A DNA stretch of 64,000 bases from Arenicellales bacterium (GTDB taxonomy: Bacteria > Pseudomonadota > Gammaproteobacteria > BMS3Bbin11). A model generated the notes under the pieces. The model saw only the letters and a program-made list of their open reading frames with translations, ran no database searches and was not told where the DNA came from. Position 1 is the stretch's first letter. Each line of letters opens with the position of its first letter. The stretch is taken from NCBI GenBank assembly GCA_029287915.1, contig JARFQE010000023.1, forward strand, positions 16,537 to 80,536. The letters run 5' to 3'. Below are positions 5,615-51,830 of this stretch, in pieces. The position numbers and the translations under genes are program-made.

Positions 5615-6112
5615 TCAGCAAACCTCTTCAGGCTGGCGAATGACCAGTAATAAGCCGAGTAAACTGACCAGCAGATAAAGACCACTGGCAATTCCATGTA
5701 GCAATGCGAATCTGCTATGTAATTCTGTGCCTTCTCGTAAAGCACTCCCTGCCATTTCTCTTAAAGCAGCTATTTCGGGTGTCAGAAAAAATAGATTAAT
5801 TGAAATAAAAACTGTTATTAATAAAAGTACGGCATATCGCCATTTTGCCTGATCAATAAAAAAATAAGTGACCGCGAGTAGCAGCGCGAATATCAGCCCT
5901 AGCCAGCTCAAAAAGATAAATAGCTGTCCTGCCACGTTACCTGCCATTTGATGACTCGGCAGCTGCTGAAACAGTACCGGTACTACAATATAGCCAACAG
6001 TCCAGAGCCCACCAATCCAGAATGTCAGAATAATACGTTGGAGATTGACCAGTACGCGGAAAATGCGTTTACCGCTGAATCTGGAATCATCCACTTCAGA
6101 TGTATTTGACAC
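5615..6112 (-). CDS. DUF4149 family integral membrane protein
   Basis: A 165-residue protein with four predicted membrane segments: roughly 25-45 ([20 protein letters not shown]), 60-85, 90-110 and 135-160. The first segment with its VPVLFQQL motif resembles the DUF4149/TMEM205-like family. Function is unknown. It starts inside the end of greA (17-base overlap), so it is translationally coupled to greA. The same pairing occurs in other gammaproteobacteria. No catalytic residues are evident. Confidence 0.85.
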
Positions 6113-6572
6113 TCAGAATCTCATACGTCGTTACTCCAGCAGGAGTTTGCACATCGACTTCATCGCCCTCTTCCTTGCCAATTAATGCACGTGCGATAGG
6201 AGAACTTACAGATATTCTTGATTTCTCAATATCCGACTCAAGATCACCAACAATCTGATAGGTGACTTCTTCTTCAGTTGAGATATTTAATAATTCTACA
6301 GTGGCGCCGAAAACAATGCGTCCTCCTGTATCGAGACTGGTGGGGTCGATAATCTGTGCCTGGCCCAGAGCGCTATCGAGTTCCTTGATGCGGCCTTCTA
6401 TAAAGCCCTGTTCTTCTCTAGCTGCATGATACTCGGCATTTTCAGACAGGTCACCATGTGCACGTGCCTCAGCAATAGCATCAATTATCCGTGGGCGATC
6501 AACTTTTTTCAGTCGCTTTAGCTCTTCACGTAAACGCTCGGCCCCCTGGCTGGTCAATGGCATACTGATCAT
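6096..6572 (-). CDS. greA: Transcription elongation factor GreA
   Basis: Binds the RNA polymerase secondary channel and stimulates cleavage of backtracked transcripts. The 158-residue protein has the N-terminal coiled-coil hairpin with the tip [22 protein letters not shown], whose acidic residues reach the active site. The C-terminal FKBP-like domain contains [16 protein letters not shown]. The chosen ATG gives [14 protein letters not shown], which matches family length; the Met at residue 4 is a possible alternative. It follows carB on the same strand, as in many gammaproteobacteria. Confidence 0.97.
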
Positions 6573-6619: not shown

Positions 6620-9600
6620 CTATTTCAGTGTCTTGTGCAAGTCCTGTAGCTTATAGACGGTAATATCATTACTGGCACGATGCGCCTCGACTGCCGCTTT
6701 GGCGGCAGCAAGCGTTGTGAAGTTAGTTACCTTGTGAAGCAATGCCTCACGGCGAATTGTATACGAGTCTTTCAGGCTTCGCTTACCTTCAGTGGTATTG
6801 ATAACTATGTCTATTTCATCATTTTTAATCATATCAACAATATGTGGTCGACCTTCAAGAACCTTATTGACCTGCCTAACTTTGACGCCTGCTGCTTCGA
6901 TGACTCTTGCAGTGCCACGAGTTGCCAGTATGTCAAAACCATGTCCCGCCAGGTAACGAGCGACTTCTACAACCCTTGCCTGATCCACGTCACGCACGCT
7001 GATAAAGGCCTTGCCATAATCAGGTATATCAGCACCTGCCGCTTTTTGTGCCTTATCGAAGGCCTCGCCAAATGATTTTCCTACACCCATGACTTCTCCG
7101 GTAGATTTCATCTCTGGACCCAAAACGGGATCGACACCCGGGAATTTGATAAAGGGGAAAACAGCCTCTTTAACTGAATAGTATTGCGGAATTATTTCAC
7201 CAGTAATACCCTGATCAGCCAGGCTGATGCCTGTCATACAGCGAGCACCAATTTTAGCCAGAGGGCGCGACGTCGCTTTTGACACAAAAGGAACTGTGCG
7301 TGAGGCACGAGGATTGACCTCAAGCAGATAAATATCATCACCTTTGACTGCAAACTGGATATTCATCAGCCCACGAACACCAACAGCCAGCGCAAGGCTG
7401 GTAGCCTGCTCACGTAAGCGCTGGATAATACTCTCTGGCAAACTAAATGGAGGTAATGAACAGGAGGAATCACCGGAATGCACACCGGCCTCTTCAATGT
7501 GCTCCATGATCCCGCCGATAACAACATCTTTGCCATCACAGACTGCATCGAGATCAACTTCTATAGCATCATTTAGAAAGCGATCCAGCAGCACAGGAGA
7601 ATCATTTGAAACCTCTATAGCTACCGACATATAGTTATCCAGATCCTCTATATTATGCACAATCTCCATTGCCCTGCCGCCAAGCACATAAGACGGTCTT
7701 ACTACCAGAGGAAAGCCAATCTCATCTGCACCGACCAGGGCCTCCTCGCGGCTGCGCGCGGTGCGGTTGGGTGGTTGCAATAAGCCAAGATCTTCAACCA
7801 GCTTTTGAAAGCGCTCTCGATCTTCTGCCAGGTCAATAGAATCTGGAGAGGTGCCAATGATTTTAGCCCCGGCAGCTTCAAGATCTTCGGCCAGCTTCAG
7901 AGGAGTCTGTCCACCATATTGCACAATTACGCCAGTTGGGTTTTCGATATGGATTATTTCCAGCACATCTTCCAGCGTCAGTGGCTCGAAATATAAACGG
8001 TCTGAGGTATCAAAATCTGTTGATACCGTCTCAGGATTACAGTTCACCATAATGGTCTGATAACCATCATCTCGGCAAACCTGTGCTGCATGAACACAAC
8101 AGTAATCGAACTCTATGCCCTGACCGATGCGGTTGGGGCCGCCACCAAGTACCATAATTTTGCTGCAACTGTCAGGATTTGATTCACATTCTTCTTCGTA
8201 GGTTGAATACAGGTACGCCGTTGCACTTGCAAATTCAGCGGCACAGGTATCAACGCGCTTATACACTGGACGGATATTAAAAGAATGACGCAGTGCACGA
8301 AATTCATGCTCACTAATGCCCAGTAGCCTTGCCAAACGTAAATCAGAAAACCCTTTGCGTTTCCATGTTCGTACCTGGTCTGCTTGCAGTTTTTGCTTAT
8401 CAAGCCCACGTATCTGCTGTTCTATCAGAATCAACTGTTCGATCTGGTGCAGAAACCATATGTCTATGCGGGTGAGCTCATGTATTTCATCCAGTGACAT
8501 GCCAGCACGTATTGCTTCGGCCAGATACCAGATACGGTAACTGCCCGGGACACGCAATTCCTTATACAGTGTTGCTTTTAGTTCATCAGGTTCTGTTTCT
8601 GTACAAATTTCATCAAAGCCATCGGTACCAATCTCAAGACCCCGTAGCGCCTTCTGCAATGATTCCTGGAATGTTCTCCCGATCGCCATCACTTCACCTA
8701 CAGATTTCATCTGCGTCGTCAGGGTACTATTTGCTGCCGGGAATTTCTCAAAATCAAAGCGCGGGAATTTGGTCACCACATAGTCGATACTGGGCTCGAA
8801 TGAGGCTGGCATGGCTCCACCGGTGATCTCGTTCTGCAATTCGTCAAGGGTATAGCCAACGGCAAGTTTGGCTGCAACTTTTGCAATTGGGAATCCGGTA
8901 GCTTTCGATGCAAGTGCAGATGAGCGAGAAACGCGTGGATTCATTTCAATGACGATCATGCGTCCATTATCGGGATTAATCGCATACTGTACATTTGACC
9001 CACCGGTATCGACACCAATCTCACGCAACACCGCAATACTGGCATCGCGCATCAGTTGATATTCTTTATCTGTCAATGTTTGCGCAGGCGCAATGGTAAT
9101 GGAATCACCGGTGTGCACGCCCATCGGATCAAAATTTTCAATGGAACAGACAATAATGACGTTGTCCGCGCGATCGCGCACCACCTCCATTTCGAATTCT
9201 TTCCAGCCCAGTATGGACTCCTCAATCAACAGCTCACTGGTAGGTGATGCTTCAAAACCGCGGTCACAAAGATCATAATATTCTTCGCGGTTATAGGCAA
9301 TTCCACCACCGGTCCCGCCCATGGTAAACGATGGACGAATGATGGCAGGAAATCCAACCATGGCCATGATCTGCTCAGCCTCTTCCATATTGTGGACGAT
9401 AGCTCCACGGGCTGTCTCAAGGCCGATAGCCTCCATGGCTTGACGAAAAAGTTCACGATCCTCAGCTTTGTCTATAGCTTCACGTGATGCACCAATCATC
9501 GCGACACCATAGCGATCGAGCACCCCCTGACTGACCAGATCAAGAGCACAGTTCAGTGCAGTCTGACCACCCATAGTCGGCAACAGGGCATCGGGTCTCT

Positions 9601-45459: not shown

Positions 45460-45516
45460 GTGGCTAAGCAAGAAGTTCGTCAGCGCTATTTTACAGCAAT
45501 GGCGAGGGAGGTTATT

Positions 45517-47742
45517 TTGAACGACCGAGGTGTTATCATTATCATTGATGATGATGTAAGCAGTGTCAACGTTCTACAAGAGCTCCTTATTAACGATGGA
45601 TACGATGTCGAGTGGAAAGCCAGCGGCATGCAGGCACTTGAGTTCATCGCGGTAAATGAACCTAATCTTGTAATGTTGAGTGACCACCTGTCGGATACAG
45701 ATCCGTTCAAACTTCTCGACAGATTAAAGGAAATCAAACAGGCGCGAGATATACCGGTGATCCTGATGGCCACTGGTGACGACGCCGAGACCCGGCTAAA
45801 AGTACTCCAGTCAGGCGATGACCTGATCGTCAAGCCGTTCGACACGCGCGAAGTCCTGGCAAGGATTGAGCGACAGGTCACCGTCTCTAAAGTGCGCATG
45901 GCCCTGCGTGAATCCGAGGCGAAGTTCAGGTCAGTTATGGAGTCGGCGATTGACGCCATCATCTCCAGCGATGCTGAGGGTAATATTCGTTCGTGGAACA
46001 GTGCGGCAATGGCGCTGTTTGGATTCACCGAGGCTGAGGTTATAGGACATCCTATTGATATGATCATTCCTGACCGCTACAAAGAAAGTCATCGGCAGGG
46101 AATAAAAAGGGTGAGTTCAGGAGGTCCCAGCCATGTTATCGGTAAGACTGCCGAGCTCGCCGCTATCCGCAAGGATGGATCAGAGTTTCCTGTCGAGCTG
46201 TCGCTTGCTACGTGGTTCCTCGATGACGAACGTTACTACACCGGCATCATCCGTGATATCAGCGAGAGAAAACAAGCCGAACAGAAGTTCAGGTCAGTCA
46301 CCGAATCCGCAATCGACGCGATCATCTCGGCTGACAACATAGGTAATATCATCAGCTGGAACAAGGCGGCTACACGCATCCTGGGCTATTCCGAAGAAGA
46401 GTCGGTTGGCCAGCGTCTTGAGATGATTATACCGGAGCGCTTTCACGAGGCACATCGCAATGGCATGGCAAGATTTACTGCCACAGGAGAAGGCCACGTC
46501 ATTGGTACCACAGTAGAACTGTTCGCACGCAAGAAAAACGGTGATGAGGTGCCTATAGAGCTCTCGCTGTCCACCTGGACAGTCCGTGATGAACGCTATT
46601 ACACCGGTATCATCCGTGACATCGGTGAACGCAAACGGGCAGAACAAGCCCTTATCCTGAGCGAGCAGACTCTACGTGACAGGACCGAGGAATTACAGAA
46701 GAAAAACAGGGTGCTGAAAAAAACATTAAAGCGGCTAAACGATATGCAAAACCAGTTAATCATCCAGGAAAAAATGGCCTCGTTGGGTAAGCTTAGTGCC
46801 GGCATGGCACATGAGTTGAATAATCCTGCAGCAGCTGCACAGCGTGGTGCTGCACAACTGCAGGCGACATTTGCTAAATGGCAAAGCATCCTGCTGAAAA
46901 TGGGACTTCTGAACCTTGACAAGACACGTGTCGCGAAGATGATAGAACTCGATAGTAAAATTAAGGAACGCGCGCGGAAGCCTGCAGAATTGAACGCCCT
47001 GATGCGCAGTGATCAGGAAGAAGCCATCGAGGAATGGCTGCAGGAGCGAGATATCGATACTGCAGGAGAACTGGCACCTGCGCTTGTCAACCTCGGATAT
47101 GATCAAATAGAGCTGGAGGAACTGACAAAGGTTTTCAATGCAGAGCAGTTTGCCATGGTTATTGAATGCTTGAGTTTCAAACATGAGATCTACAGTCTTG
47201 TGTCCGAAATCGGCCTTGGAACCAATCGTATCGTTGAAATAGTTAAAGCACTAAAAACCTATACCTACATGGACCAGGCGCCGGTTCAGTCAGTAGATGT
47301 ACGAAAAGAACTGGATAACACTTTGATCATTCTTCACAACAAACTGAAGAGAGGTGTCACTGTTGTCAGGGAATATGCCAGTGATCTGCCGGTCATTGAG
47401 GCGTACGCAAGCGAATTGAACCAGGTGTGGACAAATATCATCGACAACGCTATCGACGCCATGGATGGCGAGGGAAAACTGTTCGTCCGCGCACGCCGCG
47501 AGGATCCCTGGCTAGTCGTTGAAATCGAGGATGACGGCCCCGGTATCCCCGAGGAAATACAGTCACAGATATTCGATCCTTTCTTCACCACCAAAGGACC
47601 GGGCGAAGGCACAGGATTGGGTTTGAATATCAGCCGCAACCTGGTGGTGCAGAAACATGGAGGGCAGATTTCGGTTTCATCAAAACCGGGCAGTACCTGC
47701 TTCTCTGTTCGTCTTCCTTTGGAGTTCAGTCCAGCTGAATGA
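45517..47742 (+). CDS. Soluble PAS histidine kinase with a degenerate receiver domain
   Basis: No membrane segment, so cytoplasmic. Order: receiver-like domain (about 1-125), two tandem near-identical PAS domains with PAC tails (both RYYTGIIRDI.ERK), a coiled coil, an H-box GKLSAGMAHELNNPAAAA, a helical insert (AELNALMRSDQEEAIEEWLQ), then the HATPase with NIIDNAIDAM, DDGPGIP, FDPFFTTK and GTGLGLNIS. The receiver has Ser where the phosphoacceptor Asp belongs (LVMLSDHLSD) and Ala at the conserved Thr, though the Lys is kept, so it is probably a pseudo-receiver. Start chosen at TTG 45517 because GGAGG precedes it; ATG 45499 and GTG 45460 are alternatives without ribosome-binding sites. Likely partner: the downstream fusion, 25 bases away. 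Confidence 0.9.
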   Translation: MNDRGVIIIIDDDVSSVNVLQELLINDGYDVEWKASGMQALEFIAVNEPNLVMLSDHLSDTDPFKLLDRLKEIKQARDIPVILMATGDDAETRLKVLQSGDDLIVKPFDTREVLARIERQVTVSKVRMALRESEAKFRSVMESAIDAIISSDAEGNIRSWNSAAMALFGFTEAEVIGHPIDMIIPDRYKESHRQGIKRVSSGGPSHVIGKTAELAAIRKDGSEFPVELSLATWFLDDERYYTGIIRDISERKQAEQKFRSVTESAIDAIISADNIGNIISWNKAATRILGYSEEESVGQRLEMIIPERFHEAHRNGMARFTATGEGHVIGTTVELFARKKNGDEVPIELSLSTWTVRDERYYTGIIRDIGERKRAEQALILSEQTLRDRTEELQKKNRVLKKTLKRLNDMQNQLIIQEKMASLGKLSAGMAHELNNPAAAAQRGAAQLQATFAKWQSILLKMGLLNLDKTRVAKMIELDSKIKERARKPAELNALMRSDQEEAIEEWLQERDIDTAGELAPALVNLGYDQIELEELTKVFNAEQFAMVIECLSFKHEIYSLVSEIGLGTNRIVEIVKALKTYTYMDQAPVQSVDVRKELDNTLIILHNKLKRGVTVVREYASDLPVIEAYASELNQVWTNIIDNAIDAMDGEGKLFVRARREDPWLVVEIEDDGPGIPEEIQSQIFDPFFTTKGPGEGTGLGLNISRNLVVQKHGGQISVSSKPGSTCFSVRLPLEFSPAE

Positions 47743-47767: not shown

Positions 47768-49429
47768 ATGAGCAAACCTATCATTATGACAATCGACGAT
47801 GAGCCGCATGTGCTAAACGCAATTGCACGAGATTTGAAGGCACATTACCAGAAGGATTATCGAATCGTAAAGGCAAGCTCGGGCGTCGAGGCACTAGAGG
47901 CGGTACAGGAGTTCAAGCGACGGAATGTACCGGTAGCACTGTTGCTGGCGGACCAACGCATGCCTTCCATGAGTGGAACTGAGTTTCTGGAAGAAGCCCT
48001 CAAACTGTATCCGGAAGCTAAAAGAGCACTGCTCACGGCCTATGCCGATACCGCTGCTGCCATTGCCAGCATCAACGACATCGGTCTTGATTACTACCTC
48101 ATGAAACCGTGGGATCCCCCGGAGGAAAACCTCTATCCCGTGCTGGATGACCTGCTCAGTGACTGGCTGGCTAGTGTACCAGTACCCTACGATGGTATCC
48201 GGGTAGCCGGCACCCTGTGGTCGGCAAATTCACACAACGTCAAGGATTTTCTCGCCCGCAGTCAGATACCCTATCAATGGCTCGATATTGAACGAGATTC
48301 AGAAGCGAGAACGATGGTGGAGACTGCCTCCAAAGAACGACCGCAGTTGCCGATGCTATTCTTCCCCGATGGCAGCACGCTGGTAGATCCCGATCTACGC
48401 ACGCTTGCAGACAAGGTCGGTATGTCTACGCTGGCCAAGCAGCCTTATTACGATTTGATTATTGTTGGCGCCGGCCCAACGGGTTTGGCAGGTGCCGTTT
48501 ACGGCGCTTCCGAGGGACTGAAGACCATCGTGATAGAGAAAGGCGCTGCCGGTGGGCAGGCGGGTACCAGTGCACGGATTGAGAATTATCTCGGTTTCCC
48601 GCAGGGTGTAAGTGGTGCAGATTTGACGCGACGAGCGACAACGCAGGCACAACGCCTGGGAGCTGAAATCCTGACCGCCCAGGAAGTCACCAATGTAGAG
48701 GTCGAAGGCCCATACCGTGTTGTGACGCTGGATGATGGTGGTAAGTTGAGCTGCAAGGCGCTTATGATTGCAACCGGTGTCAGGGTTCGCGAGCTCAATG
48801 TGCCTGGTATTGAATCCTTGATCGGTGCCTCGGTGTACTATGGTGCGGCCACCTCAGAAGCAATAAACTACAAAGATGGCAAGGTGTTCGTGATTGGTAG
48901 CGGTAACTCAGCCGGACAGGGTGCGATGTTCCTGTCACGCTTTGCAAGCGAGGTCACCATAATGGTCAGAGGGGACTCGTTGCAAAAAAATATGTCACAA
49001 TACCTGATCGACCAGATAGATGGTGCGGAAAACATCTCAGTGATGATGAATAGCCAGGTGGCATCAATGGAAGGCTCCGACCATCTCGAGACCATCACGA
49101 TAAAGAACAACAAAAGCGGTGATGCCGAGACGGTGATGGCCGATGCTGTATTTATTTTTATTGGTGCTGTTCCACATACTGATTTCGTAAAGGATGTCGT
49201 CCAACTCGACAAGTCGGGATTTATCCTCACCGGACAGGACCTGATACATGAGGGGCGCCGGCCGAAGAACTGGAATCAAAAGCGTGACCCATTCCTGCTG
49301 GAGACCAGCGTGCCGGGAATCTTTGCAGCCGGCGACGTGCGACACGGAGTGGTCAGGCGGGTGGCATCAGCTGTGGGCCAGGGCTCTATCGCGATCAGCA
49401 TGGTGCACAAATATCTCGAGACTGTATGA
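47768..49429 (+). CDS. Response regulator / glutaredoxin-like / thioredoxin-reductase-like fusion
   Basis: A 553-residue three-part protein. Residues 1-125 are a complete receiver (DDE near 10-12, phosphoacceptor Asp62 in LLLADQRMP, Thr90, Lys113 in LMKPWD). Residues 145-225 look like a glutaredoxin fold (GTLWSANSHNVKDFL, cis-Pro in QLPMLFFPDG), but the CxxC position reads SANS. Residues 229-553 are a thioredoxin-reductase-type flavoprotein with FAD motif DLIIVGAGPTGLAGA, NADPH motif VFVIGSGNSAGQGA and ATG/GD motifs, but YYGAATSEA replaces the redox CxxC. The only Cys is Cys329. So it binds FAD and probably NAD(P)H but cannot do disulfide exchange in the usual way. The upstream kinase is the likely phosphodonor. 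Confidence 0.93.
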   Translation: MSKPIIMTIDDEPHVLNAIARDLKAHYQKDYRIVKASSGVEALEAVQEFKRRNVPVALLLADQRMPSMSGTEFLEEALKLYPEAKRALLTAYADTAAAIASINDIGLDYYLMKPWDPPEENLYPVLDDLLSDWLASVPVPYDGIRVAGTLWSANSHNVKDFLARSQIPYQWLDIERDSEARTMVETASKERPQLPMLFFPDGSTLVDPDLRTLADKVGMSTLAKQPYYDLIIVGAGPTGLAGAVYGASEGLKTIVIEKGAAGGQAGTSARIENYLGFPQGVSGADLTRRATTQAQRLGAEILTAQEVTNVEVEGPYRVVTLDDGGKLSCKALMIATGVRVRELNVPGIESLIGASVYYGAATSEAINYKDGKVFVIGSGNSAGQGAMFLSRFASEVTIMVRGDSLQKNMSQYLIDQIDGAENISVMMNSQVASMEGSDHLETITIKNNKSGDAETVMADAVFIFIGAVPHTDFVKDVVQLDKSGFILTGQDLIHEGRRPKNWNQKRDPFLLETSVPGIFAAGDVRHGVVRRVASAVGQGSIAISMVHKYLETV

Positions 49430-50730: not shown

Positions 50731-50758
50731 AAAAAAGCCGCTGTATGCTTACAGCGGC
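50731..50758 (-). terminator. Intrinsic terminator after iscU
   Basis: Minus-strand GCCGCTGTA-AGCA-TACAGCGGC, a perfect 9-bp stem with a 4-base loop, followed by six T. It ends the iscR-iscU transcript 26 bases after the iscU stop and just before truD. Confidence 0.93.
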
Positions 50759-50783
50759 CAGATTTGTTACAGGTTTCAGATAA

Positions 50784-51182: not shown

Positions 51183-51260
51183 AATTCTCTCCGTTTTCTC
51201 TATTATACATACAATCGTTTATAAGATTTTGCTTATTATAACAAGAAATATAAATATTTC

Positions 51261-51749
51261 TCAGCTCGCTTCTCTTAAATCAGCATAATCACCCGGAATT
51301 CCGGAATGCCACAAACGCGCTGGCACGTCGCTGATAGAATCACCATCATGCGCCCGCTCGATGCATTCCTTGAGTGTTATGTTATTCAGAAACTGATAGA
51401 TGCTGCGACTCAGAGAACTCCACATAATCTGACTCAGATAGCGAACATTATCTCCATAATATGGGATCACAGTTTCACGCATCGTATAAGTGCGATCATC
51501 TACTGAAGTAACGATATCAGCCATAGAGATTTTCTCAGCAGGTTTCGCCAGTCGGTAACCACCGCCCGGCCCGCGTACTCCTTCAATGAGGTCACTTTCT
51601 CTTAAATTTGCGAACAACTGCTCCACATAAGATACAGAAATATCCTGGTCTGAAGCGATTTGAGCCGCCGTCATTGCTCGCCCTTTACCATGAATGGCAA
51701 GGAACATCATACCTGAAATTGCAATCTGACCTTTCGATGATAATCTCAT
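51261..51749 (-). CDS. IscR-like Rrf2 regulator lacking all Fe-S ligands
   Basis: A 162-residue Rrf2 protein from ATG 51749 (AGGAG six bases upstream). The winged helix resembles IscR (ISVSYVEQLFANLR, GVRGPGGGYRLAKP), including Glu43, which governs DNA specificity. The end FLNNITLKECIE also matches. In the cluster-binding loop the four ligands of E. coli IscR (Cys92, Cys98, Cys104, His107) align without gaps to Glu92, Tyr98, Tyr104 and Gln107, so it cannot bind the 2Fe-2S cluster in the known way. It may be a permanently apo form or sense something else. It directly precedes iscU and has a matching operator over its own promoter. The symbol is left blank because the sensing function differs. 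Confidence 0.9.
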   Translation of the reverse strand: MRLSSKGQIAISGMMFLAIHGKGRAMTAAQIASDQDISVSYVEQLFANLRESDLIEGVRGPGGGYRLAKPAEKISMADIVTSVDDRTYTMRETVIPYYGDNVRYLSQIMWSSLSRSIYQFLNNITLKECIERAHDGDSISDVPARLWHSGIPGDYADLREAS

Positions 51750-51778: not shown

Positions 51779-51803
51779 ATTCCTGACTATTTCGGTAGGT
51801 TAT
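51779..51803. promoter_or_regulatory. IscR type-1-like operator
   Basis: A 25-bp site beginning ATTCCTGACTATTT and ending GGTAGGTTAT. It agrees with the published E. coli IscR type 1 consensus (as I recall it) at about 21 of 25 positions. It covers the expected transcription start and the -10 edge of the iscR promoter, a repressing position. Confidence 0.65.
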
Positions 51804-51830
51804 TTTATTAGATCCTGCTATTGCTGTCAA
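51802..51830 (-). promoter_or_regulatory. Sigma-70 promoter of iscR-iscU
   Basis: Minus-strand TTGACA, exactly 17 bp, then TAAAAT. This is near-consensus. The start would be near 51795, giving a leader of about 45 bases. The -10 overlaps the operator. Confidence 0.8.

Follow-up and report, generated by a model that had tools for sequence, protein, structure and literature searches.

In the textbook case, the scaffold protein IscU and the regulator IscR belong to a single operon with a single feedback loop. In E. coli, IscR (PDB 4hf0, 4hf1 and 4chu) heads iscSUA and carries the ligands Cys92, Cys98, Cys104 and His107. Its apo-form binds type-2 sites, where Glu43 contacts a CC pair, and as long as the protein has no cluster Glu43 keeps it off type-1 sites (TT in one arm; PMC5411485). 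Rrf2 proteins that lack cluster ligands are already known, and so is an IscR with one cysteine: in the Rhodobacteraceae (PDB 7zpn) the cysteine at position 142 lies in a Pro-Cys-Pro motif and was reported to hold the cluster, and the protein regulates the isc-suf operon (PMC4618611). CymR of Bacillus subtilis and Staphylococcus aureus, an Rrf2 repressor that makes no use of a Cys3His cluster, acts on cysteine metabolism in complex with CysK (PMC2869319). RisR of Myxococcus xanthus, which comes from a different Rrf2 lineage, regulates isc/suf; it still has a cluster and three cysteines but not Ser40, Glu43 and Gln44 (PMC9973013). Uncharacterised mycobacterial and cyanobacterial clusters of Rrf2 proteins without conserved Cys/His have aromatic residues at the ligand positions, and no link to iscU was stated for them (PMC9218516).

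We analysed a 64,000-nucleotide stretch of Arenicellales DNA (hereafter named the window) from a 2.78-Mb draft genome, in which a homologue of IscR (hereafter named IscR') is encoded directly ahead of iscU (Table 1). Its likeness to E. coli IscR covers the Rrf2 fold, the recognition helix, Glu43, the wing, the dimer helix and the link to isc; however, IscR' has none of the four ligands, heads iscU alone, behind a hybrid operator, rather than iscSUA, coexists with a canonical IscR in the same genome, and has CC instead of TT in the left arm of that operator. With the Rhodobacteraceae protein it shares the lack of a Cys3His set, the single cysteine and a presumptive role in regulating Fe–S genes, but IscR' is a paralogue beside a canonical IscR and its cysteine lies elsewhere. 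CymR is also a close match in fold, and IscR' likewise lacks the Cys3His site. Unlike RisR, IscR' retains Ser40, Glu43 and Gln44, and its Tyr98 and Tyr104 resemble the aromatic residues of the mycobacterial and cyanobacterial proteins.

Table 1. Features of the iscR'-iscU locus and nearby genes, with their positions in the window
Feature	Position	Strand	Basis
-35 hexamer TTGACA of iscR'-iscU	51825..51830	minus	conserved in genus
-10 hexamer TAAAAT, 17-bp spacer	51802..51807	minus	TANAAT in 7/7 species
Hybrid operator ATAACCTACCGAAATAGTCAGGAAT, 25-mer over -10/+1	51779..51803	minus	conserved, sequence-predicted
iscR', clusterless IscR/Rrf2 regulator, 162 residues	51261..51749	minus	profile search, alignment, purifying selection
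Recognition helix, residues 39-51, Ser40/Tyr41/Glu43/Gln44 kept	51597..51635	minus	invariant alignment columns; AlphaFold2 helix
Former cluster site, residues 85-110, Glu92/Tyr98/Tyr104/Gln107	51420..51497	minus	alignment, AlphaFold2 model
Codon of Cys129, sole cysteine of IscR'	51363..51365	minus	sequence comparison
Intergenic element TGTTATAATAAGCAAAATCTTATAAA, extended -10 plus imperfect inverted repeat	51218..51243	minus	conserved
iscU, sole IscU gene of the genome	50784..51182	minus	IscU equivalog-domain model; single genome match
Intrinsic terminator after iscU, closing the two-gene unit	50736..50759	minus	conserved in genus
Response-regulator domain fused to thioredoxin-reductase-like flavoprotein	47768-49429	plus	
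PAS histidine kinase	45460-47742	plus	

Profile searches placed IscR' within the Rrf2 superfamily but outside the IscR equivalog. It scored 103.4 bits with Pfam Rrf2 (PF02082; cut-off 30) and 100.9 bits with TIGR00738 (cut-off 73.3), whereas the scores with the IscR equivalogs TIGR02010 (115.4 bits; cut-off 207.55) and NF008110 (101.6 bits; cut-off 275) and with the CymR family profile (70.9 bits; cut-off 195) all fell short. The closest solved structures were those of E. coli IscR (E about 1e-24). Homology starts at ATG 51749, which is preceded by AGGAGATTAAA, and the stop is at 51261; the mechanical open reading frame begins at GTG 51770 and is seven residues longer. The alignment with E. 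coli IscR is gap-free as far as the cluster site extends, where it shows C92E, C98Y, C104Y and H107Q; this bears out the initial annotation, which had every ligand replaced. The DNA-contact residues Ser40, Tyr41, Glu43, Gln44 and Arg59 are kept, together with the wing RGPGGGY, which starts with Arg59 and comes after the recognition helix, so that the retention of this helix and of Glu43 was also correctly described. The ending FLNNITL, given as retained too, is present in the source species but not in its congeners, which have FLHNITL, FLHNISL, FLHSISL or FLHEISL. In an AlphaFold2 model the helix-turn-helix and the dimer helix were confident and the former cluster loop was ill-defined, with pLDDT values below 50 at residues 91-93 and a mean of 52 over the block 91-100. 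Apo-IscR and IscR–DNA structures were the best matches of the model (TMt 0.80-0.91), and CymR was also close. Judged from its sequence, IscR' is unable to bind a cluster in the established Cys3His manner, and the earlier expectation that it has lost the usual means of sensing cluster supply agrees with the absence of these ligands.

Six other species of the genus have orthologues of IscR' with 78-86% identity, in which the ligand replacements recur except that Tyr104 is Asn in one species. As the orthologues agree with the gap-free alignment, an alignment slip concealing the ligands was rejected. Pairwise dN/dS values among six species (0.06-0.17 for IscR' compared with 0.03-0.09 for canonical IscR) indicate that IscR' is under purifying selection, and the possibility of a pseudogene was rejected on the same values.

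The lone cysteine of IscR' is Cys129, not Cys130 as first numbered. It pairs with E. coli Leu129, far from every ligand position, and it sits in LKECIER within the helix of residues 126-135. It is kept in 10/10 members of the clade of the source genus and family f53, its nearest group; elsewhere the position is Leu, Phe, Val, Tyr, Ala or Ile, and never Cys in the other IscRs examined, and Cys129 is lacking in the clusterless members of families f73, f140, f115, f90 and f37. In the one-cysteine IscR of R. sphaeroides the 420-nm absorption depends on Cys142 alone (PMC4618611). IscR' likewise has one conserved cysteine, and it could in the same way still bind an Fe–S cluster via other residues and sense cluster supply. 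However, Cys129 occupies a normally hydrophobic position of a C-terminal helix and not a Pro-Cys-Pro motif as in Rhodobacter, the loop of the clusterless group varies in length without a shared replacement ligand or a conserved histidine nearby, and cysteine is absent from both the cluster region and the C-terminal part of most related clusterless proteins. Because there is no shared ligand set, we consider residual cluster binding unlikely.

The gene directly downstream of iscR' is iscU, as had been noted. Its product scored 222.9 bits with TIGR01999 (IscU; cut-off 192.4) and contains the motifs PACGD, YGCGSA and LPPVKIHC, with the scaffold cysteines and catalytic residues present. A genome-wide search gave this one IscU only, and the idea that another isc operon carries an iscU copy was thus rejected. 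The search for other IscR copies, which the initial annotation had recommended, detected one, a canonical IscR with all four Cys3His ligands, in an operon of the order cysE-iscR-iscS-iscA-hscB-hscA-fdx-iscX, that is, without iscU between iscS and iscA. This split arrangement was common to all seven species of the genus examined, including the near-complete genomes G001 and G003; G002 gave an additional weak IscU match (40% identical). SufB/D was not found in any of the seven genomes by a model that was positive in 14/14 control genomes, and SUF as a back-up system in the genus was rejected. Thus, in this genus, the gene of the sole detected scaffold shares a two-gene unit with that of a clusterless IscR. 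The terminator that closes this unit lies ahead of truD. Between the two genes, the element TGTTATAATAAGCAAAATCTTATAAA occurs once per genome in 6/6 species; it probably serves as a promoter for iscU inside the unit, or alternatively as a further regulatory site. In G007, which belongs to another genus of the same family and is 81% complete, neither IscR nor IscU was found, and this organism may use another Fe–S system or have the genes in missing contigs. On the other strand of the window, the histidine kinase gene lies upstream of that for the response-regulator/flavoprotein fusion.

The iscR'-iscU promoter, TTGACA-N17-TANAAT with the hybrid box, is kept in 7/7 species, and the box is nearly unique in each genome. 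It resembles the type-1 consensus at 19-22 of 25 positions, and of 300 dinucleotide shuffles made for each species 0-5 scored as high against this consensus (6/2100 over the seven species). Its right arm is type-1-like and its left arm type-2-like. The canonical isc promoters have a textbook type-1 IscR box (ATACTTGACTAAATTAGTCAGGTAT in G000), with exactly one occurrence per genome at three or fewer mismatches. Left-arm positions 5-6 are TT in every canonical box but CC in all seven iscR'-iscU boxes. From the consensus sequences, the published base numbers appear to correspond to these two positions, and the Glu43 rule (PMC5411485) would then predict a permanently clusterless Glu43 protein facing a CC arm. 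As the right arm is still type-1-like, canonical IscR may bind as well. Taken further, canonical holo-IscR might be the only user of the box, leaving IscR' as a competitor or near-idle passenger; the overall resemblance to type 1 would fit, as would the clear type-1 boxes that precede this pair in related lineages. Yet in all seven species the left arm has changed to CC where the canonical box still has TT, and the DNA-contact residues of IscR' are held by purifying selection, which makes exclusive use by the canonical protein improbable. The hybrid box is a feature of the Arenicellales genus: pairs of several other families carry type-1-like boxes (21-24 of 25), and there canonical IscR may still control the pair.

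The pairing was not confined to the genus. Gene neighbourhoods of about 120 different IscR homologues were read in two samples, of 276 and 370 gammaproteobacterial genomes, and a clusterless IscR stood directly before iscU in twelve further genomes from six other gammaproteobacterial families: f37 (G043), f53 (G060 and G270), f73 (G080, G193, G281 and G372), f90 (G097), f115 (G224) and f140 (G147, G244 and G342). The linked iscU was the only IscU at E <= 1e-30 in G060, G080, G097, G147, G193, G244 and G270; SUF is present besides in G060, G080 and G097, and no SUF was found in G244 and G147. In these last two (L116 and L118) the canonical IscR is beside cysE with no iscS behind it. The genes flanking the pair vary between families, and hence the pair itself is the conserved unit. 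Among the loci read, 19/40 clusterless copies were directly upstream of iscU compared with 2/77 copies with three cysteines, a count biased by the choice of part of the loci for similarity to iscU-linked members; 41 of the 77 precede iscS. Cys3His copies before iscU were seen in G230 and G223, and in G234 (L176:5465-6010) the IscR directly before iscU has only Cys92 and His107 left; these copies look like possible intermediates of ligand loss. Canonical iscR-iscS operons devoid of iscU (e.g. G021, G150, G172, G216 and G283) were rejected as split operons, as these genomes have no IscU at all at E <= 1e-30. A phylum-wide sample at E <= 1e-59 returned the source genome only, and so the iscU-linked type is uncommon. 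We found no description of a clusterless IscR–iscU pair or of a split iscU in the literature consulted, which was mostly outside subscription journals.

In both phylogenetic trees the clusterless copies were apart from the canonical IscR that their genomes also encode, and the proposal that IscR' is a recent duplicate of its genome's own IscR was rejected since the two lie far apart. With all columns, one branch (99/96) had every clusterless row except those of the Burkholderiales on the same side; when the loop columns were omitted this held for 30 of 35 (97/83), five further rows lying elsewhere, in an alignment that is short and whose clusterless rows are long-branched. One origin of the clusterless copies is likely from these sequences. 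IscR' thus belongs to an old clusterless paralogue group of many families, repeatedly paired with iscU. Clusterless paralogues without iscU were also seen, adjoining rhodanese and DUF1249 (L051 and L055) or DUF1249 (L053, L109, L110 and L112), and some genomes have three IscR paralogues (cysE-linked, DUF1249-linked and clusterless). In Burkholderiales of the Comamonadaceae (L036, L038 and L040), an independently derived clusterless IscR homologue is encoded upstream of cysK (in L036, IscR 5989-6528 and cysK 6987-7961, the latter a cysteine synthase A with 398 bits; cut-off 351), an arrangement that parallels CymR–CysK of the Firmicutes.

IscR' might, by analogy with CymR, sense through a partner or a thiol, with apo- or holo-IscU, or oxidation of Cys129, setting its DNA binding; the cell would then read the status of the scaffold through a regulator that itself binds no cluster. 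Besides the fold match with CymR and its complex with CysK, the recurrence of the pair amid otherwise different surroundings, the restriction of Cys129 to the source genus and f53, and the independent Burkholderiales case are consistent with such sensing. However, simple autoregulation would also yield the adjacency of iscR' and iscU, the proteins of five families without Cys129 rule out sensing by this residue as a general mechanism, and no pocket residues are conserved in the former cluster loop across the clusterless group in the alignment. We regard sensing of this kind, which would accord with the initial annotation's alternative of a response to another signal, as possible but doubtful.

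The best-supported reading, to which we give about an even chance, is that IscR' is a constitutive apo-IscR-like autorepressor that would fix iscU expression independently of cluster sensing, much as the initial annotation had suggested with a constitutive apo-type regulator. On this autorepressor reading IscR' would fold and dimerise like IscR, bind DNA via its conserved helix-turn-helix with Glu43 and, being clusterless, recognise a type-2-like half site. Requiring no ligand or signal, it would act mainly at its own promoter, where occupation of the hybrid box over -10/+1 should repress iscR'-iscU, and this negative feedback loop would fix the supply of the IscU scaffold. Canonical IscR, which senses clusters, would continue to govern the supply of IscS, IscA, HscBA and Fdx from the type-1 box of isc, and the conserved, probable internal promoter would allow some iscU expression outside the IscR' loop. 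The autorepressor reading draws on ligand loss with the DNA-contact residues kept, on purifying selection and the apo-IscR-like model, on a conserved, near-unique hybrid box whose CC arm fits the Glu43 rule (PMC5411485), and on the position of the sole iscU behind iscR', with none in the isc operon, no SufB/D found and recurrence in six families. Several points argue against it. A purely constitutive regulator needs no Cys129, yet this residue is kept in the source genus and f53; an apo-type Glu43 protein should bind the TT-arm type-1-like boxes of other families poorly, and canonical holo-IscR may be the main regulator of the pair there; and the internal promoter could bypass the operator. 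More speculatively, and in our view rather unlikely, the pair might form a recurrent two-gene module whose clusterless IscR senses, through Cys129 or by direct contact, what state IscU is in and sets iscU transcription; one sensor would then govern the supply of scaffold and another the remainder of the ISC machinery.

In a genus with no detected SUF, the sole scaffold gene has thus been removed from isc and given a regulator that should be unable to sense clusters in the classical way. The recurrence of this pairing in six other families suggests that the arrangement is useful, and it raises the questions of what role an IscR has once its cluster is gone and for what reason the amount of scaffold would be set separately from that of the desulfurase and the chaperones. 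It is also a warning that IscR homologues beside isc genes should not all be annotated as cluster sensors.
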